Source of the DNA: Acidobacteriota bacterium
Lineage (GTDB): Bacteria > Acidobacteriota > Vicinamibacteria > Fen-336
NCBI GenBank assembly: GCA_016199625.1
Contig: JACQGI010000008.1
Coordinates: 1-55,253 of the forward strand
Direction of reading: 5' to 3'
Length of the DNA: 55,253 bases
Shown: piece after piece, positions 3,965-43,764 of the stretch
Numbering within the stretch: the first letter of the stretch is position 1
Layout of the letters: each line of letters opens with the position of its first letter
The notes under the pieces: model-generated
What the model saw: only the letters and a program-made list of their open reading frames with translations
The model's database searches: none
What the model was told of the DNA's origin: nothing
Program-made: the position numbers and the translations under genes

Positions 3965-5221
3965 GTGGCCCCTTCCGAGACCATCGACATCGGTCGTCTG
4001 ATCCGGCAGATCCCCAGCCAGTACCCCTTCGTCCTCGTGGACCGGGTCCTCGAGCACGATGCGGGCGGCCTGGTCGGGCTCAAGAGCGTCACAGGATCCG
4101 AGGATTTCTTCGAAGGGCATTTCCCCGGCGCCCCCGTCATGCCCGGTGTCCTCATCATGGAGAGCCTGGCCCAGGCCGCCGGGATCTGGCTCCTCCGGAA
4201 CGCTCCCGATCCTGCCCGCGTCGAGGTCTACGTCGTGGGGATCGACGACGCAAAGTTCCGGCGTCCGGTGGTCCCCGGCGACCAGCTCCGCCTGGAGATC
4301 CGGATCCTCCACCGCCGCGGCGCCCTCTCGCGCGTCCGCGGTGAGGTCCGTGTCGGGGAACACCGGGCCGCCGAGGCGCGACTGCTCCTCCAGTCCATCA
4401 CCCTGGCGACGCCCGAGATCGATCCGACGGCCCGCATCTCGCCGGCGGCCGTTTTGGAGCCGGGCGTGCGCATCGGGCCCTACTGCGTCGTGGGCCCCCA
4501 GGTACGGATCGGATCCGGGACCGTCCTCGAGTCCCACGTCGTCGTCGAAGGGCCCACGGCGATCGGCCACGACAATCGCTTCCATCCGTTCGCCTCGGTG
4601 GGCCTCGCACCGCAGGACCTCAAGTACCGCGGCGAGGCCTCGCGTCTCGTCATCGGCGACCGGAACGTGTTTCGCGAGTTCGTCACGATCCACCGCGGGA
4701 CCGAAGGCGGCGGATGGGTCACGCGCATCGGGTCGGACAACCTCCTCCAGGCCCACGCTCACGTCGCCCACGACTGCTCCGTCGGGAGCCACACGATCCT
4801 CGCCCATGGCGCGACCCTGGGGGGTCACGTGGAGGTGGGGGACTACGCCATGGTCGGGGCCTTCTCCGGGGTGCACCAATTCTGCCGTGTCGGCGCCCAC
4901 GCGTTCCTCGGCGGGTTCACCGTCGCGACCAAGGACGTGCTGCCGTACTCCAAGACCGTGGGCAACAGGGCTTGCATCTATGGGATCAATCAGGTCGGAC
5001 TGCAGCGGCGGAGCTTCTCCCCGGGGAGCATACGGGAGCTGCGCCAGGCCTATCGCGTGCTCCTCCAGAGCCGGCTGAACACCTCCGACGCCGTGCGTCG
5101 CCTCGAGGCCGAGGGTCCCCACACGGCTGAGGTCCGCGCCGTCGTTGAGTTCATCCGCTCGTCGGACCGGGGCGTCATCCTGAAGCGACGGAGTCGCGGG
5201 GACGACGACGCCGAGGAGTGA
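3965..5221 (+). CDS. FabZ-LpxA fusion: 3-hydroxyacyl-ACP dehydratase / UDP-GlcNAc 3-O-acyltransferase
   Basis: One uninterrupted 418-codon frame joins two lipid enzymes. Residues 1-150 are FabZ, with the hot-dog signature GHFPGAPVMPGVLIMESLAQ carrying catalytic His52 and Glu66; FabZ dehydrates 3-hydroxyacyl-ACP. Residues 152-418 are LpxA, a left-handed beta-helix of hexapeptide repeats with catalytic His269 in AHVAHDC, followed by VHQFCRVGAHAF and the C-terminal helical domain. LpxA transfers the same 3-hydroxyacyl group onto the UDP-sugar in the first step of lipid A synthesis. The linker is only a few residues (about 148-153). The start is GTG at 3965 after a weak GGAG. The two activities compete for one substrate, so the fusion joins the branch point between lipid A and membrane lipids. 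No frameshift or internal stop is visible. Confidence 0.93.
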   Translation: MAPSETIDIGRLIRQIPSQYPFVLVDRVLEHDAGGLVGLKSVTGSEDFFEGHFPGAPVMPGVLIMESLAQAAGIWLLRNAPDPARVEVYVVGIDDAKFRRPVVPGDQLRLEIRILHRRGALSRVRGEVRVGEHRAAEARLLLQSITLATPEIDPTARISPAAVLEPGVRIGPYCVVGPQVRIGSGTVLESHVVVEGPTAIGHDNRFHPFASVGLAPQDLKYRGEASRLVIGDRNVFREFVTIHRGTEGGGWVTRIGSDNLLQAHAHVAHDCSVGSHTILAHGATLGGHVEVGDYAMVGAFSGVHQFCRVGAHAFLGGFTVATKDVLPYSKTVGNRACIYGINQVGLQRRSFSPGSIRELRQAYRVLLQSRLNTSDAVRRLEAEGPHTAEVRAVVEFIRSSDRGVILKRRSRGDDDAEE

Positions 5222-7085: not shown

Positions 7086-8117
7086 ATGACGCAGCGCGTG
7101 GGCTTTCTGGTGTCCGCGATCATTCACTTGATGCTCTTGATGGCATTGATCGAGAACACTGCGAACGCACCGACCCGGCCCGTGCCTCCGGCCGGGCCGC
7201 CCCCGGAACGTCAGGAGGTGGTGTTCCTCCCCCCGCCCGAGGTGCTCCGGCAGTTGCTCCCTGCACCGGATCCCTCCCTCCTTGTGCAGCGAGCACTCGG
7301 GGGGACGCCGCCGGCTATGGCGATCCCCCTGGCTTCGCCGGCGCCCCCGCCATCGCCGACCCCGCCGCCACCACTGGTCCCCAAGGATCGCGTCAGCATC
7401 GGGGGTCCGGGGCCCCGCAAGGAGGGCCCACTGGTCCTTCAGCCCGAGGTGGACATTACGGCGGCGAAGGGCACACCGACCGGCGGTGGACCGCGGCAGT
7501 TGCCCCGTACCGAACCCACGCCAACACCGCCACCCCCGGGAAACGCGGCTGTGGACAGTCCGGCGGTCGTCGCCTCAAAGGACGGCGTGCCGACGCCTCG
7601 GGCACCTGAGGGCCTGCCCCTTGTTCCTGGCGAGGGCCGCGTCGAAAGGGGGCTGCAGGAGCGGGCCGAGCGCGTCGGGGGTGCTCGGAGAGACGGGAGC
7701 CAGCCCTCGATCGCCGGCTCGCTGAGGAACCTGGACCGGAGGCTCCAGGAACCAGGCCCCCTGGGCGTTCCTTCGGGCACGCGACAGCAGGTGGGGCCGC
7801 TCCTGTTCGACCCCGAGGGGGCCGATTTCACCTCCTGGACCAACCACTTCAAGAACGAGGTCTACCGCAATTGGATCGTTCCCCAGCCAGCCCTCATGGG
7901 CTTCCGCGGCCACGTGGACATCGAGTTCACCGTCGAGCGTGACGGGTCCGTGAGCCACTTGGCGATCCTGAAGGGCTCCGGGACGCTCGCCCTCGACCGC
8001 GCGGCCCAGAACGCCATCCTGGGCAGCCGCTTCCAGGCGCTGCCCGCGGACTTCAGGCCGCCGCGGGTGACGATGCAGGCGTCCTTCTTCTACAACGAAG
8101 CGCCGCAAGGATCGTGA
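7086..8117 (+). CDS. tonB: TonB family protein
   Basis: A 343-residue inner-membrane energy transducer. Residues 6-22 form one N-terminal transmembrane helix (VGFLVSAIIHLMLLMAL). A long Pro-rich periplasmic spacer follows (about 30-240, with runs such as PAPPPSPTPPPPL). The C-terminal TonB domain is at about 250-338, including FRGHVDIEFTVERDGSVSHL and LDRAAQNAI. Such proteins pass proton-motive force to outer-membrane receptors, usually with ExbB/ExbD, which are not encoded here. The start has a good ribosome site (AGGGGAG, about 6 bases upstream). The next gene overlaps its stop, so the two are co-translated. Confidence 0.85.
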   Translation: MTQRVGFLVSAIIHLMLLMALIENTANAPTRPVPPAGPPPERQEVVFLPPPEVLRQLLPAPDPSLLVQRALGGTPPAMAIPLASPAPPPSPTPPPPLVPKDRVSIGGPGPRKEGPLVLQPEVDITAAKGTPTGGGPRQLPRTEPTPTPPPPGNAAVDSPAVVASKDGVPTPRAPEGLPLVPGEGRVERGLQERAERVGGARRDGSQPSIAGSLRNLDRRLQEPGPLGVPSGTRQQVGPLLFDPEGADFTSWTNHFKNEVYRNWIVPQPALMGFRGHVDIEFTVERDGSVSHLAILKGSGTLALDRAAQNAILGSRFQALPADFRPPRVTMQASFFYNEAPQGS

Positions 8118-10351
8118 TCCTCCTCCGCGGACTGCGGCGCGGCGGGGCGACACTCGCTGCAGGATTCGTCGTGGCTGCCGCCGTGGCCGCGAGCTGCCGG
8201 AGCCTGCCGGATCGCGCTCCCGTGGGCCCGCCGGCGTTGCCTCAGCCCGCTTTCGACGGCCTCGTCCCGGGGCCGAGCCTCCGCGTGGGCATCCTCACCG
8301 ACGCCCGCCGGGTCTCGATCGCGGCCGAGTCGGCGGTGGACGTGTGGGTCACGGGGGACGGAGCGGGCCGGCCCCGGTCGGTGCAGCGGGCCACCTTCGG
8401 AGCGGTGTCCGGGGCGCTGTCGGAGGCCTCGCGGTACCGTGTCCAGGTGGCGAGCCTCGCGAGCGAGACGGCGGCGCGCCTCGCTTCGACGCGGGCGAAG
8501 GAGGCGTCGGGCCTCCCCCCGACGGTGCAGTGGAACGGGGCGACGAGCACCTACCAGGTGCGCGTGGGTGCCTTTGCCACCCGCGAGGAGGCGCGCGCCC
8601 TGGCGGACCGGCTGTCCTGGACCGGCCTGCGCGGGGCGTTCGTCGCTGAGGAGACCTCTGCGGAGCTCGGTGGCGTCATGAGGCTCCACGAGACCGAGGA
8701 AGAAGTCTCCGCCGCCACGGTCGTGCCGGGATACCCGGGCGAGATCCTCACGGTGGATGGCACTCCCTACCGCGGGCTCATCGAAGTGCGTCCCAACGGG
8801 GCGGGGAGCCTCACGGTCGTGAACATCGTGAACGTCGAGGACTACCTCCGCGGCGTCGTCCCCAACGAGCTGTCGCCGCAGGGCTTCCCCCAGATCGAGG
8901 CGCTCAAGGCGCAGGCTGTGGCTGCGCGGACCTACGCGCTGCGCAACCGAGGGCAGTTCCGCAACAGGGGCTACGACATCTGCGCAACACCGTCCTGCCA
9001 GGTCTACCGGGGCATGGCCACGGAGGACCCCCTCGCGGACCGGGCCGTGGAGGAGACCCGGGGCGTCGTCGGTGCCTGGGGTGACGGCCTGATCAACGCC
9101 CTCTACACCTCGACGTGCGGCGGGCACACCGAGGACAGCCAGCACATCTTCGAGGGCGAGCCGGTGCCGTACCTGAAGGGCGTGGCGTGCGCCCCCGAGC
9201 GGTCGGCCTGGGGCGCGATCCGCACCGCCGCGGCCACCGAAAGCCTCGGCGACGAGGAGGGCCTGAACCGCGACGCCGCGCTGCTGGTGGCTCTGGGCGT
9301 CGTCGAGCCGCGCCTGTACGAGGCGAAGACCCTGAAGGGGTTCGCCACGGACACCGAGGTGCGTTCGTGGACGTCGCGTCTCGTCACCGCCCTCCGGCGC
9401 AAGGGGTGCCCCGGGGCCGAGCCGCCGCTGGCACGCCGGGCGGGGTTCTTCCACCACGTCGTGGCGAGCCTCTGCTGGGAGGAGCGCGCTCAGCGCCTGC
9501 TCTCGCCGGATGATCCCGAGTACCTGCTGCAGGTCGAGGATGGGGCCGAGCTCGCGGGGAACGGCGAGCGACTGGCCGCGGCGCTGTTGATCCAGGAGGG
9601 GGTGCTCTCGCCGTTCCCCGACAACACCCTGCGGCCCGGGATTCCCGTCACGCGGGCCCAGGCCGTGCGCCTGCTCGCGCGCGCGGCCGGGCGGGCCGGC
9701 GTGCCGGGGCTCGTCACCGCCGAGTTCCGGGGCGCCGAGGCTGGAGAGCTCCGCGTGCGCCGCGGCGACGCCCTCGAGTCCCACCCCCTCGACCGCTCGG
9801 CCCGGCTGTTCCGAACCATCGACGGCAGTGCCGTGGCCGCCTCGGAGATCAGCCTGGTTGCAGGCGACGTGGTGCGCTTCGTGACTCAAGAGGGTCGGGT
9901 CGTGTTCCTCGAGGCCGAGCACAGCCGCCTCGGGGCGGCCGCCGATCGCACGTCCCGGTACTATCGCTGGGAGGTCCGCCTGACACCTGCGCAGGTCGCC
10001 CAGGGCCTCTCGCGGTACGGGAGCGTCGGCAGGGTGAAGGACGTCGTGCCGCGGAGGATCGGGGTCTCGGGTCGCGTCGTCGAGCTGGCGGTCGTCGGCA
10101 CCGAGGGAGAGCTGGTGTTGCGGGGGCTGAAAGTCCGCTGGGCCCTGGGCCTCCGCGAGAACCTCTTCGTGGTGGATCGCGAGACAGACGTCCACGGCGC
10201 CGTGGAACGCTTCGTGTTCACGGGCAAGGGATGGGGCCACGGCGTCGGTCTCTGCCAGGTGGGGGCGTACGGCATGGCCGTCGCCGGCGCGACGTACGAG
10301 GAAATCCTCGGGCACTACTACACGGGCATCCGGCTGGACAAGGCCTACTAG
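8114..10351 (+). CDS. SPOR-SpoIID composite envelope protein with SLH-bearing insertion
   Basis: A 745-residue exported protein. Residues 10-28 are hydrophobic and end in AASC, a weak lipobox, so it may be a lipoprotein. Residues 107-177 form a SPOR peptidoglycan-binding repeat (YRVQVASLAS, YQVRVGAFATREEARALADR). The SpoIID lytic-transglycosylase fold starts near 215, with Glu252 in VVPNELSP, ALKAQAVAARTYAL and a conserved Cys pair at 290/295. It resumes at 615-745 with GKGWGHGVGLCQVGAYGMA. Between these halves, about 365-610 is an insertion containing an SLH-like motif (VLSPFPDNTLRPGIPVTRAQ). SpoIID acts on denuded glycan strands during sporulation; a diderm homologue probably remodels septal or side-wall peptidoglycan. 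GTG start overlapping tonB by 4 bases. Confidence 0.82.
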   Translation: MILLRGLRRGGATLAAGFVVAAAVAASCRSLPDRAPVGPPALPQPAFDGLVPGPSLRVGILTDARRVSIAAESAVDVWVTGDGAGRPRSVQRATFGAVSGALSEASRYRVQVASLASETAARLASTRAKEASGLPPTVQWNGATSTYQVRVGAFATREEARALADRLSWTGLRGAFVAEETSAELGGVMRLHETEEEVSAATVVPGYPGEILTVDGTPYRGLIEVRPNGAGSLTVVNIVNVEDYLRGVVPNELSPQGFPQIEALKAQAVAARTYALRNRGQFRNRGYDICATPSCQVYRGMATEDPLADRAVEETRGVVGAWGDGLINALYTSTCGGHTEDSQHIFEGEPVPYLKGVACAPERSAWGAIRTAAATESLGDEEGLNRDAALLVALGVVEPRLYEAKTLKGFATDTEVRSWTSRLVTALRRKGCPGAEPPLARRAGFFHHVVASLCWEERAQRLLSPDDPEYLLQVEDGAELAGNGERLAAALLIQEGVLSPFPDNTLRPGIPVTRAQAVRLLARAAGRAGVPGLVTAEFRGAEAGELRVRRGDALESHPLDRSARLFRTIDGSAVAASEISLVAGDVVRFVTQEGRVVFLEAEHSRLGAAADRTSRYYRWEVRLTPAQVAQGLSRYGSVGRVKDVVPRRIGVSGRVVELAVVGTEGELVLRGLKVRWALGLRENLFVVDRETDVHGAVERFVFTGKGWGHGVGLCQVGAYGMAVAGATYEEILGHYYTGIRLDKAY

Positions 10352-33953: not shown

Positions 33954-35741
33954 GTGTCATCGGCTGAGCCCGCCGCACCGAAGCGCCGCCGGCTGCCGTG
34001 GGCGTCTTCGCTGCTCCTGGCGGTCTTCGTCCTCCTCGGCGCCTACCTCCTCCACGCGGCCCTCTGGCGTCCGCTGGGTGTCACGGGGGAGCCGCCCGCC
34101 GACGGCTTCCGGCGCGTCGCGGGCGTCGTGCACGTCCACACCACGGCGTCAGACGGCGGCGGCACCCCGCAGGAGGTGATCGCGTCGGCCCGGGCCGCGG
34201 GCCTCGACTTCCTCGTCCTCACGGACCACAACAACCTCGACGCCAAGGCCTTCGAGGGCCGGCACGATCGCCTGCTCGTCCTCGTCGGCACCGAGATCTC
34301 GACGACCGCCGGCCACGTGCTCGGCATGGGGATCCCGGATCCGACCTTCCGATTCTCCGGCGACGCCGAGGACGCCCTCGACGACGTTCGTGAACTGGGC
34401 GGCGTCTCGTTCGCGGCGCATCCGACCAGCCCGCTCCCGGCGTTCCGCTGGACGGGGTGGGGGCTGTCGGGTCCGTGGGGCGTCGAGCTGATCAACGGGG
34501 ACAGCCAGTGGCGGGAGGCCGGCTGGCTTCGCCTGGCTCGCACGGCGGTGCTCTATGCCGCGAACCGACGCTACGCGCTTCTCACGAGCCTGTCGCCGCC
34601 CGACGCGACCCTGGCACGGTGGGACTCGCTCCTGCGGCAGCGGAACGCGGCAGGCCTGGCGGGGGCCGACGCCCACAGCCACGTCCGCTTGGGGAAGCAG
34701 GCCGGCGTGCGCTTCCCGTCCTACGAAGCGCTCTTCGGCCTCGTGCGCAATCACGTTCTTCTCGAAGGCCCGCCTACCGGCGACCCGGCGGCGGACGGCC
34801 GGGCGATCCTGGGGGCGCTGGCCCGCGGGCGATCCTACGTGGCGCTCGACGCCCTCGCTCCCGCCGGCGGCTTCTCCTTCGTCGCCGAGCGCGACGGCGG
34901 GCGCTGGACGATGGGGGACGTCGTCCCGGCCGGGGGCCCCGTGACGTTTCGCGCGGGCGGCCAGCTTCCCGCCGGTGCGCGCCTCCTGCTCCTGCGCGAC
35001 GGCCGCGTGGTGTCGCAGTCCGAGACGCGTCTCGAGTTTGCTAGCCCCGAGCCGGGCGTGTACCGGGTGGAGGTCCGCCTCCGCGGGTGGGACGTGCCGT
35101 GGGTGATCTCGAATCCCCTGTACGTCTTCGACTCCGTGACGGCCGAGGAGCGCGTCCGCCGGGGCGCGTGGCCGGCGCCGGCTCAGGCGCCCGCCGCGGC
35201 GCGAATCCTGGAGAGCTTCGAGGGGGCGTCGGCGTTCGCGCCCGAGTTCGACCCGTCGTCCTCGGTGGCGGCGCCGACGGTGGACCCGACGGCCGGTCCG
35301 GACGGGAGGGGGGCGGCGCGCATGGCGTTCGCCCTCGGCGCCCCGGGTCCGGGGCGGCCCTACACGTGGTGCGCTCTCGTGGATCGCGCGAAGCGCGACC
35401 TGTCCGGCCGGGCCGGCCTCGTGTTCTCGATCCGGGGGGACGGCGCCTTCCGGCTGTGGGTGCAGGTCCGCGACGAGAACCCCGCATCCGCCGACGAGGG
35501 CACCGAATGGTGGTTCGCCTCGGTGCGCACGTCGCCCGAGTGGCGCCGTGTCGCCTTGCCCTTCGCGCGCCTGCGCTCGCTGAACAAGGCCACCGACGGC
35601 AGGCTGGACCTGGACAGGGTCCGCGGCCTCGCGTTCATCCTGGACGGTGGCGCGGTCAAGGTGGGAACCCGGGGCACCGTCTGGATCGACGACGTGGGAG
35701 TCTACGATCCGGTCACGCCGACGCTGAAGCCCGCCTCCTGA
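33954..35741 (+). CDS. Membrane-anchored PHP-domain protein with C-terminal beta-sandwich
   Basis: A 595-residue protein. Residues 17-38 form a transmembrane anchor after a basic N-terminus (PKRRRLPWASSLLLAVFVLL). Residues 60-300 are a PHP metal-dependent phosphoesterase domain: VVHVHTTASDGGG, VLTDHNN, GTEIST, AAHPTSP and GADAHSHVRLGK supply likely metal ligands. After a beta-rich segment (about 310-400), residues 425-590 resemble a galactose-binding/CIA30-like jelly roll (FSIRGDGAFRLWVQVRD, DDVGVYDP). The catalytic part should face the periplasm. The substrate is unknown; phosphoester or glycan-linked phosphate are possibilities. GTG start at 33954 after GGGAGGGCGAGC. The 3' end overlaps the convergent membrane gene by 29 bases. 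Confidence 0.75.
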   Translation: MSSAEPAAPKRRRLPWASSLLLAVFVLLGAYLLHAALWRPLGVTGEPPADGFRRVAGVVHVHTTASDGGGTPQEVIASARAAGLDFLVLTDHNNLDAKAFEGRHDRLLVLVGTEISTTAGHVLGMGIPDPTFRFSGDAEDALDDVRELGGVSFAAHPTSPLPAFRWTGWGLSGPWGVELINGDSQWREAGWLRLARTAVLYAANRRYALLTSLSPPDATLARWDSLLRQRNAAGLAGADAHSHVRLGKQAGVRFPSYEALFGLVRNHVLLEGPPTGDPAADGRAILGALARGRSYVALDALAPAGGFSFVAERDGGRWTMGDVVPAGGPVTFRAGGQLPAGARLLLLRDGRVVSQSETRLEFASPEPGVYRVEVRLRGWDVPWVISNPLYVFDSVTAEERVRRGAWPAPAQAPAAARILESFEGASAFAPEFDPSSSVAAPTVDPTAGPDGRGAARMAFALGAPGPGRPYTWCALVDRAKRDLSGRAGLVFSIRGDGAFRLWVQVRDENPASADEGTEWWFASVRTSPEWRRVALPFARLRSLNKATDGRLDLDRVRGLAFILDGGAVKVGTRGTVWIDDVGVYDPVTPTLKPAS

Positions 35742-37248
35742 TCCCTCGGGCCGCCTCGTCCACGAGCAGGGCGAGGGCGAGGAGGTGCACGACGGCGAAG
35801 CACTGGGCCTCGAGCGCGCTCGCCGTGGTGATCGCCACCGGCAACGTGAGGGCGGCGCACGCGACGCACCCGAGCAGGAGCAGCGCGGGGCCCAGACGAG
35901 CGCGGGCGTCACGGAAGCGGACGGTCCGGGGACCCGCCCACCAGAGCCCGGCGAGCAGCGCCGGTGGCAGGAGCAGGAGCTCCACGGGGACCTCCCGCAG
36001 CGCGCCTCCGAGCCCGACGAAGTCCGCCGTCGTCGTGAGGCGGTAGTACACGTCCATCACGCCTTCGTTGGCCGAGGTGGAGGGTGCCATCGTCAGGCCG
36101 TCCCTCGGGCCGAAGGGCCACAGCTTCGAGAGGGTGGCCGTGGCGACGAGCCTCTTGGCGAGGATGGCGGCGTACCAGGACGGGTCCTCGGCGACGTGGC
36201 GCAGGACGAGACGCCGGAGGGTGCGTTCCTGGTCCGCTGTCCAGGTCGGGCCGGCGAGGACCCTGGGGATGGAGTGGCCCTCCCGCCGGAGGACGTTGCG
36301 GGCCTCCGGATCGAACCAGGCATGCCCCTTCTCCCGGTCGAAGTCGCCGAGGCCCTCCCAGATGCCCACCCAGGCCTCGTGGTGGCCCGGCTGTCGGACC
36401 ACCGCGTAGGGGGCGAGGAGGAGCACAAGGCCGAGCGCGGCGAGGCCGGTCACGACGCGCAGGCTCGGTCCCGCCGCAGCGCGCCGCGCGCCGAGGATCA
36501 AGGCGAGGGCGTAGCCGGGGAGGAGGAGGATCGTGCCGCCACGGCAGAGGACGCAGCAGGCGAACACGAGCCCCGCGGCGGCCGCCCGCACGAGGAGCGA
36601 CCGTGGCGTCGGCGGGTCCCCCAGCAGGGCATGGGCCGCGAGCGGCACGAGGGTGAGGAGGCCGACGAGGTAGAAGCCGACGGCGGAGTAGGGGAGCGAC
36701 AGGACCTCCACGACGAACGGGAGGGAGACGAGCGCCAGGGGGAACGTCATGGCGGCGACCGGCCGGCCGGCGGTGGCGAGCTCCCAGGCGATCCACGCGA
36801 GGACCGGCATCGCCGCGAGGGTGCCGAGCCAGAGGCCCAGGTAGGGGGCGACGCCGCCGAGCAGGCGGAAGCCTGCGCCCAGGAGGAGGGCGCGCCCGGG
36901 ATCGTCGTTGTGTCGGAGGACCACGCGCCCGCGGTCGAGGAACGGCTTGACGGGAACGGTCCGCCAGAACTGCCAGGGGCGAACGCCCGCCTCGCCGGCG
37001 ACACGGGACAGGTAGCGCTGGTAGGCGTGGCGCAGGTCGGCCCCCGCCCCTCCGGCGACGGTCGCGGTGGGCACCGGCCTCGGGTCGCCGCGATCGAGAT
37101 GGTGCGACGCGGCCACGGTCACGTCCTCCCAGAAGCGCCGCGGCGTGCGGAGCGACGCGAGGTCGCCTGAGCGACGCGCGGCGGTGTCGTACCCGAGGAG
37201 GACGCAAGCGGAGAGCCCAGCCAGGACGGCGACGGGGATCCGACGCAA
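35713..37248 (-). CDS. Polytopic membrane protein of unknown function
   Basis: A 511-residue protein with about ten hydrophobic segments (for example VAVLAGLSACVLLGY, YLGLWLGTLAAMPVLAWIAW, LLLLPGYALALILGA and a Leu-rich helix near the C-terminus). The soluble stretch after the first helix (ASHHLDRGDPRPVPTATVAG) faces outside. The overall plan resembles GT-C membrane glycosyltransferases, with large loops between helices, but I see no DxD/ExD signature in the first loop clear enough to assign it. The start is TTG, 3 bases after the lptFG stop on the same strand, so it is probably in that operon and may act on LPS or another envelope glycan. Confidence 0.65.
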   Translation of the reverse strand: MRRIPVAVLAGLSACVLLGYDTAARRSGDLASLRTPRRFWEDVTVAASHHLDRGDPRPVPTATVAGGAGADLRHAYQRYLSRVAGEAGVRPWQFWRTVPVKPFLDRGRVVLRHNDDPGRALLLGAGFRLLGGVAPYLGLWLGTLAAMPVLAWIAWELATAGRPVAAMTFPLALVSLPFVVEVLSLPYSAVGFYLVGLLTLVPLAAHALLGDPPTPRSLLVRAAAAGLVFACCVLCRGGTILLLPGYALALILGARRAAAGPSLRVVTGLAALGLVLLLAPYAVVRQPGHHEAWVGIWEGLGDFDREKGHAWFDPEARNVLRREGHSIPRVLAGPTWTADQERTLRRLVLRHVAEDPSWYAAILAKRLVATATLSKLWPFGPRDGLTMAPSTSANEGVMDVYYRLTTTADFVGLGGALREVPVELLLLPPALLAGLWWAGPRTVRFRDARARLGPALLLLGCVACAALTLPVAITTASALEAQCFAVVHLLALALLVDEAARGIRRRASASA

Positions 37249-37251
37249 CCC

Positions 37252-39648
37252 TCAGGTCTCCAGGGTGAGCATGAGGTACAGGCCGGCGGCGGAGAACAGC
37301 AGGTTCGGGGCCCAGACGGCGAGGACGGCGGGCAGCAGCGCGTTGTTGCCGAGGGCCTCGAAGATGGCCAGGCAGGCCCACAGGACGATGGCGATGACGA
37401 TGCTGATCCCGACGCCGTAGAGAGCGCCGTGTCGTCCCACGACGAACGCGAAGGGAATCCCGATGAGGGTCATCACCACGCCGATGGTCGGGAAGGCCAG
37501 CTTGCGATGGAGCTGGACGCGGAGCTTCGTCACGTCGAACCCCTTCGCCTCGAGGGCCGCGATGTGGGTGCGCAGCTCGCGAAAACCCAGGCCGTCCGAC
37601 CCCTTCTCCTCGCGGCGGAAGTAGGCCGGCGGCTCGACCTCGCGTGTCCGCGCGGCCTGGAAGTTGCGGAAACCCGAGCGCTCGCCGAAGCTGCGCCTCC
37701 ACCCACGCTCGAGGTCGTACGCGATGCCGTTCCAGGCGGCGCGTGCCGCGAACAGCCGATCGCGGAGATCCCAGCCCTTCGGGTCCACGTCGTAGACCGA
37801 CAGGCCGTAGAGGGAGAAGCCCTCGTGGCCCGGGTTCGCCTGCCCCTCCACGAGGTACTCGTAGTTGTACAGCCTCTCGTCGCTGCCGATGATCCACCGG
37901 TGGTCGAGGGCGCTGGCGGTCTGGGGTGGCCGTCCCTTGATGACGTTGAAGTCCTGGCTCGCCACGCGGTTGGTGAACGGGAGCAGGAACTCGCCCATGC
38001 CCATGAGGACGAGGCTGCACAGGGCCCCGAGGAGGACGGCGGGCAGGGTCGCCCGGTACACGCTGACGCCGCCGGCCTTCATGGCGGTCACCTCGTTGCG
38101 GCGGGCGAGGATGCCGAAGGTGGTCAGGGTGGCTACCAGGACGGCGAAGGGGGCGATCAGGTGGAGGATGAACGGCGCGTGGAAGAGGTAGTAGTGCACT
38201 ACCACCTTTCCCTTCACCTTGTGCTGCTGGATGTCGTCGAAGAGATCGAGGAACTCCCCGAGGAGGAAGAAGGACCAGAAAGCGACGAGGACCAGGAAGA
38301 AGTGCCCCACGTACGCGCGTGCGACGTAGCGGTCCAGGATCCCCGGGAAGCGCACCGTCAGGCGGGGGACCTTGACCACGACCACGGGACGACGTCGCAC
38401 GGTGGCGAGCGGTGGCCGCCCCGGGCCCTTCGCGAGGGCAGGCTTCTCCTCGGCCCGACGGATGCGCGGCAGCCACGACGTGTAGTGGCTGGGGTCGAGG
38501 GGGTCGAACGCCGCCTCGTGCTGGTTCAAGGCGAGGAGTACCAGGGCCAGGGCACCCAGGAGGATGTTGGCCCCCCACATCCCCAGGAAGGGAGACAGCA
38601 TGCCCGTGTCGCCCGCCTGCTCCCCGAGGCGGATGATCACGTAGTAGATGAAGATGACGGCGATGGAGAGGCCGAAGGCCGCCGAGCGCGCTTCCTTCTT
38701 GCTTCCCAGGCTGAGGCCGAGGCCGAGGAGCCCGAAGACGAGGCATGCCGCGGGGATCGCGAACTTCTTGTGCCACTCCACGCGGAAGCCCGCGGTCTCC
38801 CGCGGTGCCTTGCCCTGGCTTCGCAGCTCCGCCACGCGGGCCGAGAGCTCGCCGAGGGTCATCTCCCGGTCGCCCTTGGGCAGGTCGATCTGGGGAAAGA
38901 ACTGCTCGAAGGGGAGGGGGAAGTCGCCCGAGGCGAAGCGCTGCTGCTCGTAGAGCTCGGGCTGGGCCGGGTCGAGGGCGTGGATCGCCCCGTTCTCGAG
39001 GTGAAGCTCCACGGCCTTGCGGTGCTCGTCGATGACGAGGCGCCCCGAGCGGGCTAGAATCACGCGGGGCTTCTGGGGGATGCGGGCGTCGTGGATGAAC
39101 ACGTCCTTCCACAGCCCCGTCTCCGCCGGGATGTCGGAGATGTAGACGACCATGCCCCCCACGAGGTCGTCGTTGAAGACGCGTGGCTTCAGGGAGGTCT
39201 TGGCCTTGTTCGCCGCGACGTTGAAGAGCACCCGGCGGTGGGCCTGGTTCGCCGCGGGCAGCGCCACGGCCATGACCCAGAAGGTGGCGAGGCAGGTCGC
39301 GACCGACAGCGCGAGGAGGGGACGCAGAAGCCGCAGCGGGCTCACGCCGCTCGCCCGTAGCGCCACGATCTCGCAGTCGCTCGCGAGTCGGCCGAAGGCC
39401 AGGAGTATTCCCAGGAGGAACGCCATGGGGATGGTCACGGCCAGGATGCTCGGCAGGAGGTAGACGAAGACGCGAACGACGGTCGGCAGGTCGGCGCCCC
39501 GGGAGATCAGCACGCCCATGAGGACCGTGATCTGCTGCAGGAGGAGGATGAACGTAAACAGCAGGAGTCCGAGGCCGGTGGGCGGGAGGATCTCCCGGAC
39601 GATGTACCGGTCGAGCAACGTCGGCCGGAGGCGCGCGAGCGGCGTCAC
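37252..39648 (-). CDS. LptF-LptG fusion, LPS export permease
   Basis: One continuous 798-residue frame contains two YjgP/YjgQ permeases. Residues 1-375 match LptF: three N-terminal helices, a periplasmic jelly-roll (YISDIPAETGLWKDVFIHD), and three C-terminal helices. Residues 376-433 are a basic/Pro linker (RRAEEKPALAKGPGRPP, TVRRRPVVVVKVP). Residues 434-798 match LptG (ILDRYVARAYVGHFFLVL, ILARRNEVTAMKAGGVSVYR, HRKLAFPTIGVVMTLIGIPFAF). LptF and LptG normally form a heterodimer with the LptB ATPase that pulls LPS from the inner membrane. Fusion fixes 1:1 stoichiometry and, with an even number of helices per half, preserves topology. The start is GTG, only 2 bases from the divergent GH57 start. 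Confidence 0.93.
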   Translation of the reverse strand: MTPLARLRPTLLDRYIVREILPPTGLGLLLFTFILLLQQITVLMGVLISRGADLPTVVRVFVYLLPSILAVTIPMAFLLGILLAFGRLASDCEIVALRASGVSPLRLLRPLLALSVATCLATFWVMAVALPAANQAHRRVLFNVAANKAKTSLKPRVFNDDLVGGMVVYISDIPAETGLWKDVFIHDARIPQKPRVILARSGRLVIDEHRKAVELHLENGAIHALDPAQPELYEQQRFASGDFPLPFEQFFPQIDLPKGDREMTLGELSARVAELRSQGKAPRETAGFRVEWHKKFAIPAACLVFGLLGLGLSLGSKKEARSAAFGLSIAVIFIYYVIIRLGEQAGDTGMLSPFLGMWGANILLGALALVLLALNQHEAAFDPLDPSHYTSWLPRIRRAEEKPALAKGPGRPPLATVRRRPVVVVKVPRLTVRFPGILDRYVARAYVGHFFLVLVAFWSFFLLGEFLDLFDDIQQHKVKGKVVVHYYLFHAPFILHLIAPFAVLVATLTTFGILARRNEVTAMKAGGVSVYRATLPAVLLGALCSLVLMGMGEFLLPFTNRVASQDFNVIKGRPPQTASALDHRWIIGSDERLYNYEYLVEGQANPGHEGFSLYGLSVYDVDPKGWDLRDRLFAARAAWNGIAYDLERGWRRSFGERSGFRNFQAARTREVEPPAYFRREEKGSDGLGFRELRTHIAALEAKGFDVTKLRVQLHRKLAFPTIGVVMTLIGIPFAFVVGRHGALYGVGISIVIAIVLWACLAIFEALGNNALLPAVLAVWAPNLLFSAAGLYLMLTLET

Positions 39649-39650
39649 TC

Positions 39651-41828
39651 ATGAATCCTAGCATGCAGCCCGTTCGGGTCCTCTTTCTGTGGCACATGCA
39701 TCAGCCCAGCTATCGCGACCCCCTCGACGGCGTCGTCGTGCTCCCGTGGGTGCGACTCCATGCCCTCAAGGACTACCTCGGCATGGTCCGCCTCCTGGAC
39801 GACGTCCCGGAGGTCCGGGTGACCTTCAACCTCGTGCCGTGCCTCGTCGACCAGGTCGAGGCGCTGGTGCGCGGCGACGGCGACGATCCCCTCCAGAGGG
39901 TCACCCGAAAGCCCGCGGAGAGCCTCGACGAGGGGGAGCGCGTCCTCGCGCTCAAGGGCTTCTTCCAGGCGCACCGCCAGAACCTCGTCGGGCGCTTCCC
40001 CCGCCTCGTGGAGCTCCTCGAGAAGCGCGGCGCGGCGCGGGACGAGGCGGCGCTGGCCGAGGCTGCCCGGCGTTTCTCGTCGGAGGACCTGCGCGACCTG
40101 CAGTTGGTGGCGAAGCTCGCCTGGTTCGACCTGGACTGGCAGGCCTCGGACCCCGTGGTGCGTGGCCTCGTGGAGAAGGGGCGGGGCTTCAGCGAGGAGG
40201 ACAAGCTCCGGCTCGCCGAGCGCGAGGAGGCGCTCCTGGGCCAGATCCTGCCCGCCTACCGTCGGGCGGCGGAGAGAGGGCAGGTGGAGCTGTCCACGTC
40301 GCCGTACTACCACCCGATCCTGCCGCTCCTGTCCGATTCCGCGGCGCACCACGAGGCGCACCCGGGAGCGCCGCTCCCGCGGCGCTACCGGCATCCCGAG
40401 GATGCGGCGGACCAGGTGCGCCGGGCGGTGGCTCGCCACGCCGCCGTCTTCGGCGCGCCCCCCGCCGGGCTCTGGCCCTCCGAGGGGTCCGTCTCCGACG
40501 AGGCGGTCCTGGAGATGGCGCGTGCCGGGATCCGATGGACGGCATCGGACGAGGGCGTGCTCGAGCGCAGCATCGGGCGCCCGCTGCACCGTGACAGTCG
40601 CGGCACCGCTCATCCCCTCGAGGTGCTCTACACGCCGTGGGTGCGCCGGACGGCGGCGGGAGACGTGGCGATGGTGTTCCGGGACCGCGCGCTCTCCGAC
40701 CTCATCGGCTTCTCGTACGCCGGCATGGACCCGGAGCACGCGGCCCACGACATGCTCGACCGCTTCCGGAGGGTGGGGGAGCGCTGGCGGGCCCAGGGCC
40801 TTCCCGGGGCCCCGCTCGTCAGCGTGATCCTGGACGGGGAGAACGCCTGGGAATACTTCCGCGAGGGGGGCCGCGTCTTCCTCGCCCGGCTCTATCGGGG
40901 CCTCGCCGAGGACCCCGCCCTCGAGGCCGTGACCGTGAGCCAGGCCCTGGAGACGGCCCCGCAGCGGGAGCTGCCGCGCGTCTTCGCCGGGAGCTGGATC
41001 CACGCCGACTTCTCCGTCTGGATCGGCCACGCCGACGACCGACGGGCCTGGGATCTGCTCGGTGAGGCGCGGGACGCCCTCGATCGGCAGGCCGAGCGGG
41101 TGACGACCGAGGCGCTGGAGAAGGCCTGGGAGGCCTTCCGCGCCGCCTGCGGCAGCGACTGGTGCTGGTGGTACGGCGAAGAGCATCACTCGGAGAACGA
41201 CTTCGAGTTCGACCGGCTGTTCCGGCGGCACCTTCAGGCCGTGTACGTCTTCCTCGGGCTGGCCGTGCCCGAGGCCCTGGGCGAGACGCTGATCACCACC
41301 CGTCGCCTCGAGGTCCGGCACAGCCGGCCCACCGGAGCCGTCGAGCCGACTCTCGACGGCCGGATCTCGAGACCCGACGAATGGGTGGCTGCCGGCGTCC
41401 ACCGCGTCCCACTGGTCGGAAACGCCATGCGGCGCGGGTCCGTGGAGGTGCGGGCTCTTCGCTTCGGGCTCGGGGCCGAGCAGGTCCACCTCCTGGTGGA
41501 GACCGCCGGGCCGGCGCGAGCGCTCCTCGGCCGCTGCGACGTGGTTCTGAGCTTCCCCGGGCCGACGGCATTGCGCTATCGTGTGGGCGCACGAGGCGCC
41601 GTCCGTCGCGAGGAGCGCACGGGGCTGGGGTGGGTCGCAGCTCCGACGTCGGCGCGGGCCGCCGCCGAGGAGTTCCTCGAGGCTTCGGTGCCCATCTCGG
41701 AGCTGCGGCCGGCGCCGGGACGCCGGGTGGAGTTCCGGGTCGTGCTCCTCCAGGGAGAAGTGGAGGTCGAGCGGCATCCCGAGACCGGGCCCATCGAGGT
41801 GAGCCTCGAGGAGGTGACGCGTGGCTGA
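39651..41828 (+). CDS. Glycoside hydrolase family 57 protein
   Basis: A 725-residue GH57 enzyme, the family of alpha-amylases, amylopullulanases and branching enzymes. The N-terminal [13 protein letters not shown] is the first conserved region. The likely nucleophile Glu is in [11 protein letters not shown] (residue about 278), and the acid Asp is in [11 protein letters not shown] (about 395). [14 protein letters not shown] is another subfamily block. The last 180 residues look like a beta-rich accessory domain. No signal peptide, so it probably acts on cytoplasmic glycogen or maltodextrin. ATG 39651 is used; ATG 39663 fits the conserved start better. The stop overlaps the acs start. Confidence 0.87.
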
Positions 41829-43764
41829 CATCGAGTCCGTCCTGAAGGAGAGCCGGATCTTCGAGCCGCCGTCGACGTTCCGGCAGGCGGCCCACGTGAA
41901 GAGCTTGGAGGAGTACCGGGCTCTCTACAGGCGGAGCGTCGATGAGCCCGAGGCCTTCTGGGGGGAGCAGGCGGAGTCGCTGCGATGGTCGAAGCGGTGG
42001 GAACGCGTCCTCGAGTGGGACCCGCCGTTCGCCAGTTGGTTCGTGGGCGGCTGCCTGAACCTGTCGGAGAACTGCCTCGACCGCCACGTGGCCACCTGGC
42101 GCAAGAACAAGGCGGCCCTCGTGTGGGAGGGAGAGCCGGGGGACACGCGGGTGCTGACGTACCACGACCTGCTCCGGGAGGTCTGCCGGTTCGCCAACGT
42201 CCTCAAGGCCCTGGGCGTCGTCAAGGGCGACCGCGTGGGGATCTACATGCCGATGATTCCCGAGGCCGCCGTGGCCATGCTGGCCTGCGCCCGGATCGGC
42301 GCGACCCACAGCGTCGTGTTCGGCGGCTTCTCGGCCGAGGCGCTCCGGGATCGGATGAACGACGCGCAGGCACGGGTCATCGTGACCGCGGACGGCGCCT
42401 ACCGGCGCGGAGCGGTCGTGCCGCTCAAGGCGAACGTCGACGCGGCGCTGGCCGGAGCTCCTTCGGTGGAGAACGTCGTCGTCGTGCGACGGACCGGGGA
42501 GGAGGTGCCGTTCCACGCAGGTAGGGACCACTGGTGGCACGAGCTGATGGAGGCGGCCTCCGCGCAGTGCCCGGCCGAGCCCCTGGACGCCGAGCACCCC
42601 CTCTTCATCCTGTACACTAGCGGGACCACCGGACGGCCGAAGGGCGTCGTGCACACGACCGGCGGCTACCTGCTCCAGGCGAGCCTCACGATGAAGCTGG
42701 TGTTCGACGTCAAGGACGAGGACACCTACTGGTGCACCGCGGACATCGGCTGGGTCACCGGGCACAGTTACGTGGTCTACGCTCCACTGGCCAACGGCGC
42801 CACCACCTTCATGTACGAAGGCGCGCCCAACCACCCGGAGCCCGATCGGTTCTGGCGCATCGTGGAGCGCCACGGGATCACGGTGCTCTACACCGCGCCG
42901 ACGGCGATCCGCGCCTTCGTGCGCTGGGGCGAGCAGTGGCCGAGGAAGCACGACCTGACGAGCCTCCGCCTCCTGGGCACCGTGGGCGAGCCGATCAACC
43001 CCGAGGCCTGGATGTGGTACCACAGCGTCATCGGCGGCGGGCGCTGCCCCATCGTGGACACGTGGTGGCAGACCGAGACCGGCGCCATCATGATCACGCC
43101 GCTTCCAGGCGCGATCGCCACCAAGCCGGGCTCGGGCACGCTGCCGTTCTTCGGCGTGGAACCGGAGGTCGTGGACAAGGACGGACACGCCGTCCCTCCG
43201 GGAGCCGGGGGCTACCTGGTGATCAAGAAGCCCTGGCCGTCCATGCTGCGGACGGTGTACGGTGATCCGGAGCGGTACGTGGAGACGTACTGGAAGCGTT
43301 TCCCGGGGATCTACTTCACCGGAGACGGCGCGCGGCGCGACGCGGACGGCTACTTCTGGATCATGGGCCGGGTGGACGACGTCATCAACGTCGCGGGTCA
43401 TCGCCTCGGGACGATGGAGGTGGAGAGCGCGCTCGTGTCGCACCCGCGTGTGGCGGAGGCCGCGGTCGTAGGCCGCCCAGACGAGCTGAAGGGCCAGGCG
43501 CTCGTGGCCTTCGTGACGCTCCAGGCGGGGATTGCGCTCAACGAGGGCCTGCGCGCGGAGTTGAAGGAGCACGTCGTCAAGGAGATCGGGGCCATCGCCC
43601 GGCCGGACGAGATCCGGTTCAGCGAGGCCCTGCCGAAGACGCGGAGCGGGAAGATCATGCGCCGGCTCCTCCGCGACATCGCCGCCGGGCGCGACACAAT
43701 CGGCGACACGACGACCCTCGAGGACTACTCCGTTCTCGCGCGGCTCCGGGAAGAGGAGGAGTAA
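41821..43764 (+). CDS. acs: Acetyl-CoA synthetase
   Basis: A 647-residue AMP-forming enzyme that activates acetate. [20 protein letters not shown] is the P-loop. [36 protein letters not shown] and [20 protein letters not shown] are Acs-specific. [16 protein letters not shown] near the C-terminus holds the lysine that is acetylated to switch Acs off in other bacteria; the deacetylase-family gene at 22641 is a conceivable but not typical partner. GTG start at 41821 after GGAGGTGACGC, overlapping the GH57 gene by 8 bases. The following thrB starts 2 bases after its stop. Confidence 0.95.

Follow-up and report, generated by a model that had tools for sequence, protein, structure and literature searches.

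The LPS exporter LptB2FG is built on two separate permease subunits, LptF and LptG, and a 2022 survey contains the statement that both are "apparently lacking in Acidobacteria" (PMC8871954). A locus in a 55,253-nucleotide stretch of DNA from an Acidobacteriota bacterium (contig JACQGI010000008.1), the whole of which is called the window here, raises the question of whether both subunits can be made as one chain, and of what transporter such a chain would form. We consider it very probable that this gene encodes the whole LptB2FG permease as one polypeptide, that it descends from the fusion of an ancestral gene pair and has been kept phylum-wide, and that the basic transport cycle is unchanged.

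One reading frame with two permease halves

A preliminary description of the window had proposed, at 37252-39648, two complete YjgP/YjgQ halves joined by a basic, Pro-rich linker of about 58 residues, and had named 38360-38520 as the place to look for a stop. The frame was borne out. It lies on the minus strand, begins with GTG and runs for 798 codons to its sole, terminal stop, and the window sequence has no stop at 38360-38520. PF03739 matched the protein twice (536.6 bits summed, Pfam), and both halves scored above the cut-offs of NCBIfam equivalogs. The features of this gene, lptFG, are as follows.

37252..39648, minus strand: fused lptF-lptG gene, 798 aa; a single open frame with PF03739 twice and both NCBIfam equivalogs above cut-off
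38530..39618, minus strand: LptF half, residues 11-373; TIGR04407, 347.1 bits against a cut-off of 230 (NCBIfam); clusters with separate LptF (99/95)
37267..38340, minus strand: LptG half, residues 437-794; TIGR04408, 340.4 bits against a cut-off of 240 (NCBIfam); modelled by AlphaFold2 at pLDDT 79.6, with LptG chains as best Foldseek matches
38344..38517, minus strand: linker, residues 378-435, 58 aa, net charge +7; the span between the profile ends
39370..39372, minus strand: coupling-helix Glu of the LptF half, E93, equivalent to E. coli LptF E84; E in 82 of 84 N halves of the phylum
38092..38094, minus strand: coupling-helix Glu of the LptG half, E519, equivalent to E. coli LptG E88; E in 80 of 81 C halves of the phylum
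38254-38256, minus strand: codon of E465, at the position of LptG K34; a natural Glu

The linker is basic and Pro-rich, and its ends (EAAFDPLDPSHY... and VVVVKVPRL) are kept in near relatives. Internal duplication of one permease was considered and rejected, the halves being LptF and LptG respectively by NCBIfam and in a phylogenetic tree, not copies of each other. In sequence comparisons, LptF chains of solved structures fell on the N half and most such LptG chains on the C half; the best sequence match of LptG chains 6mjp_G and 8frl_G is the N half. The two subunits that are separate in LptB2FG are thus encoded here in one stop-free frame. A search of the organism's own genome for separate lptF and lptG found none, and its 44 contigs contained no PF03739 match outside lptFG (1.37 Mb, 63% complete, so that a separate pair could be missed). 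Judged by sequence, LptFG is a variant that would work like LptB2FG.

Several neighbouring genes were recorded. A 511-aa hydrophobic protein without a Pfam match (35713-37248, minus strand) begins 3 bases past the lptFG stop and is a possible operon partner. Divergent GH57 and acs-like genes (39651-43764, plus strand) adjoin lptFG on its other side; both are kept beside it in loci L032 and L034, and GH57 also in L167.

Distribution and origin of the fusion

The preliminary description implied a peculiarity of this organism, but the fusion is near-universal in the phylum. We translated loci by script from 89 distinct Acidobacteriota genomes (82 search loci, six fetched regions and the window; L129 was left out because it is from the same genome as L104) and found both halves, complete or partial, in one stop-free frame in 85. 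The sample was not a random draw: it consists of the matches that scored best in each search together with the set of 40 described below, chosen for low scores or odd counts. Some of the 85 are truncated or interrupted; in L029, for instance, a frameshift breaks the LptG half. The other four (L080, L086, L087 and L088) end at a contig edge. Among 60 genomes sampled up to class level, the own genome included, LptF and LptG units shared one frame in 55; three genomes of 66-78% completeness (G001, G015 and G038) had no real PF03739 match, and two (G043 and G052) held fragments, that of G043 ending with its contig inside a linker resembling the window's. A further 40 genomes of the phylum, chosen for low scores or odd match counts in the phylum search, had both units in one frame in 34 cases and contig-edge fragments in 6. 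A genome with separate lptF and lptG alone was seen in 0 of the 60 and 0 of the 40, and the four contig-cut genomes and the fragments in the genome sets could conceal exceptions. More widely, PF03739 was found in 196 of 197 genomes of the phylum (at least 150 matches). Plasmid records gave 27 matches, none spanning 80% of the query.

These data bear directly on whether a sequencing or assembly artefact has joined two genes. The contig comes from a metagenome-assembled genome, and DNA of 71% GC gives long open frames by chance, but the same fusion occurs in independent assemblies, in one-contig genomes (G138, G084 and G160) and in low-GC members, which refutes the artefact at the level of the phylum and leaves it a negligible probability. 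A chance open frame is excluded because relatives with 59-65% best-segment identity to the window's LptFG are fused alike, as are the low-GC members, at 770-772 aa (L128/L129).

Additional permease genes were observed beside the fused one. G182 has a second, separate, overlapping pair of 359 and 353 aa (L123, G182:C21), which clusters with E. coli in the tree and was probably acquired, and G108 has a partial paralogue (L124).

A maximum-likelihood tree was built from 96 rows, namely both halves from 38 genomes and 20 separate proteins. In this single tree, the C halves of LptFG formed one clade (100/96) and the N halves grouped with separate LptF (99/95). Two long branches, E. coli LptF and the extra LptF of G182, nest inside the N halves in the best tree; a tree constrained to N-half monophyly is not rejected (p-AU 0.392). 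Because the C halves are one clade and N-half monophyly is not rejected, a single lptF-lptG fusion at or near the base of Acidobacteriota would be the simplest, if unproven, reading. An adjacent ancestral lptF-lptG pair would have lost its intervening stop early in the phylum, and the fusion would then have been retained. An alignment that also included separate LptF and LptG placed LptG rows on the N half and was dropped.

Listed frame lengths may run through stops, so that script-translated frames were relied on. Outside the phylum, candidate fusions in Poribacteria (G255, 768) and in the Spirochaetota set (G324, 901) were rejected, since each had a stop between the two genes on reading. All 24 Poribacteria carry lptF and lptG separately (23 by listed frames and G255 by reading), and the two are also separate genes in Treponema and E. 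coli; in the Bacteroidota set of 31 genomes, no frame as listed held two whole permease units. In G255 just one TAA and a gap of 24 bases precede the in-frame LptG, and fusion is therefore a small step. The Spirochaetota set comprised 31 genomes, with a PF03739 match in 28. One of them, G311, contains an 826-aa open reading frame (L194:1206-3686) with two weak PF03739 halves that score 71.4 and 58.9 bits with NCBIfam, below the cut-offs; this is possibly an independent, odd fusion. A PF03739 unit broken by a long insert (L195) is also present in G311.

The survey that reported lptF and lptG to be lacking selected matches by E-value, length, coverage, copy number and taxonomy (PMC8871954), and a fused, double-length gene was probably lost at this step. 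Another paper lists a 'permease LptF/LptG' for one acidobacterium (PMC8787282). We found no description of an LptF-LptG fusion, nor of an LptC-LptA or FabZ-LpxA fusion, in the open-licence literature searched, to which our claim of novelty is limited; LptFG proteins with two domains may well be familiar to database annotators. The likely reason for the published absence matters, as that absence feeds arguments on outer-membrane evolution.

Partner genes and other joined LPS proteins

Further LPS genes were found in the window and elsewhere in the own genome.

3965..5221, plus strand: FabZ-LpxA fusion of the lipid A pathway, 418 aa; both parts by NCBIfam
L113:1456-3462, the same as L115:7647-9653 (G000:C1): LptC-LptA fusion, 668 aa; LptC and LptA profile matches
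L115:9661-10401: lptB, 246 aa; assigned by direct reading

In the FabZ-LpxA protein, LpxA (TIGR01852) scored 313.8 bits against a cut-off of 231 and FabZ (NF000582) 142.7 bits against 113. This gene is circumstantial support for LPS in the organism itself. The window also encodes, at 8114-10351 on the plus strand and behind a TonB-like gene, a 745-aa protein with SPOR and SpoIID matches and a weak SLH match.

In the 668-aa protein, LptC matched residues 14-183 (63.8 bits against a cut-off of 38) and LptA residues 534-663 (84.0 bits against 71.7). Its gene is followed 7 bases on by lptB and then by a gene read as rpoN. The lptB orthologues that occupy the corresponding position in L117 and L118 scored 355.5 and 360.2 bits with TIGR04406 (cut-off 240). 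Comparable LptC-LptA loci were collected beyond the own genome (L116, L117, L118, L170-L174 and L176-L184). The 18 proteins, from 18 genomes, have 491-855 aa, a single hydrophobic segment at the N-terminus with none later, and extra LptA-like repeats. In 13 of 18, and in the own genome as well, lptB starts between -23 and +18 bases from the LptC-LptA gene. A motif search beside the LptC-LptA gene found no lptB in L171 and L183; in L116 lptB is 1.6 kb away or elsewhere, and in L173 the genes overlap through start choice.

When 19 proteins were scanned as a family, Pfam recognised LptC in 17 of them and NCBIfam in 19, and LptA was present in every one, with E-values up to 0.01. One of the 19, L169, was rejected as LptC-LptA because it is LptD, and weak LptC matches are for this reason not specific. 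PF06835 matched in only 50 of 80 genomes, and LptC is therefore often too divergent to detect. PF03968 matches lay in listed frames of at least 490 aa in 22 of 24 genomes; an LptA of about 180 aa was seen in none of the 24, and G084 and G138 had no PF03968 match. LptD gave matches in 6 of 12 relatives' genomes and none in the own genome (63% complete). The suggestion that this lineage has a habit of joining LPS proteins, which the preliminary description drew from FabZ-LpxA, is supported; that fusion is real as well, and LptC-LptA is the better support.

Conserved residues, the linker and a proposed mechanism

The AlphaFold2 model of the C half places a beta domain between two sets of three helices, and its best Foldseek matches were the LptG chains 6mit_G, 6mjp_G and 9doh_G. 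A full-length model (six fused sequences) was poor (pLDDT 49) and was kept out of the fold search; the order of three membrane helices, jelly-roll and three membrane helices is seen for the C half in the better model and for the N half only in this low-confidence one. The coupling-helix Glu residues present in both halves are those that, in a published review, contact LptB (LptF E84 and LptG E88; PMC10094684).

The positions that meet the substrate are less well kept. In Shigella LptG, K34, K62, R133 and R136 are basic and contact lipid A phosphates, and K34E and R136E are reported as lethal (PMC6744409). The protein in the window has E465, F493, S564 and F567 at these places. Across the C halves of the phylum, K or R occupies the K34 position in 0 of 81 and D or E in 31 of 81, and the R136 position is K or R in 43 of 81. 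Because the positions of K34, K62 and R133 are mostly non-basic, substrate recognition must, as far as the alignment tells, differ from that of Shigella LptG. The loss of K34 is not tied to fusion, because LptG of Treponema and Bacteroidota has D there; the E. coli-like LptG of G182 is likewise without K34.

A changed contact site could suggest that LptFG, although a PF03739 permease, transports some glycolipid or envelope lipid in place of LPS, and PF03739 proteins are present in the control genomes of Synechococcus, Thermus and Thermotoga too. However, the halves score above the equivalog cut-offs for LptF and LptG, the own genome has LptB, LptC-LptA and LpxA genes, LptD is matched in half of the 12 relatives, and the K34 residue is also missing from the separate LptG proteins named above. 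We regard a substrate other than LPS as quite improbable and infer that LPS is what this permease carries.

Linkers across the phylum measure 24-107 aa (median 50), show little conservation outside families and are net positive in 81 of 85 fused proteins. The linker must be cytoplasmic, because each half has six membrane helices and cytoplasmic coupling loops, and this location fits the basic charge. A long, basic and poorly conserved segment should be exposed, and the fused frame might be translated and then cut there by a protease, or an internal start might precede LptG; a two-chain transporter, in the case of cleavage an ordinary LptB2FG, would result. Against this, 85 of 89 genomes retain a junction free of stops, re-splitting by a stop codon would be easy if separate chains were needed and yet split-only genomes were seen in 0 of 60 + 40, and the linker ends are conserved in near relatives. 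Such a split is unlikely, and we infer that the chain stays intact.

In the intact chain, TM1-TM3, the jelly-roll and TM4-TM6 of LptF would be followed by the cytoplasmic basic linker and then by TM1-TM3, the jelly-roll and TM4-TM6 of LptG, and two LptB ATPases would dock on both conserved coupling helices. LPS would enter via the side gate between TM5 of F and TM1 of G and would be handed to LptC, part of the long LptC-LptA protein. The review cited above places LPS entry at the TM1G/TM5F gate (PMC10094684), and in Shigella LptB2FGC the LptC helix lies between TM1 of G and TM5 of F (PMC6744409). Because the linker runs from TM6 of F to TM1 of G, it would lie on the LptC-gate side, where the LptC helix of E. 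coli and Shigella sits. The tether would enforce 1:1 pairing and co-insertion of F and G, its presumed effects on gating and stoichiometry leaving the basic cycle unaltered. That the fusion sets stoichiometry, as first suggested, is reasonable to suppose, and LptB2FG already pairs F and G 1:1.

The most likely reading of these sequences is a normal LptB2FG(C) exporter in which the permease pair and, separately, the bridge are covalently joined. There is perhaps an even chance that the machine is hard-wired, with the five E. coli proteins B, F, G, C and A reduced to LptB, LptFG and LptC-LptA; the last of these (490-855 aa, with an N-terminal membrane helix and several jelly-rolls) would span the periplasm at fixed length, and the F-G tether at the LptC-helix gate could restrain that helix. 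Acidobacteria seem to assemble a normally many-part LPS export machine from fewer, pre-joined pieces. Together, the LptFG and LptC-LptA fusions yield a model that can be tested, in which the Lpt machine of a large phylum has its subunit ratio and bridge length fixed. A natural single-chain LptFG would also be of use to structural biology and to the question of whether the halves must part at the LptC gate.

Compared with known systems, LptFG resembles the LptB2FG(C) structures from E. coli, Shigella, Vibrio, Klebsiella and Acinetobacter in its two PF03739 units of 3TM-jelly-roll-3TM, in the coupling-helix Glu, in its partner genes LptB, LptC and LptA, and in a C-half model closest to LptG chains. 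It differs from them in being one polypeptide with a basic, presumably cytoplasmic linker, whereas those have two chains, and in missing several of the basic residues that contact lipid A phosphates. Separate, adjacent lptF-lptG genes in Poribacteria, Treponema and E. coli have the same order, F then G, and in E. coli, L037 and Treponema L040 they overlap or nearly abut, but a stop codon stands between them. Full-length ABC transporters carry both membrane domains on one chain, usually together with ATPase domains. LptFG is like them in covalently pairing two non-identical membrane domains, and unlike most of them in that its ATPase, LptB, is separate.
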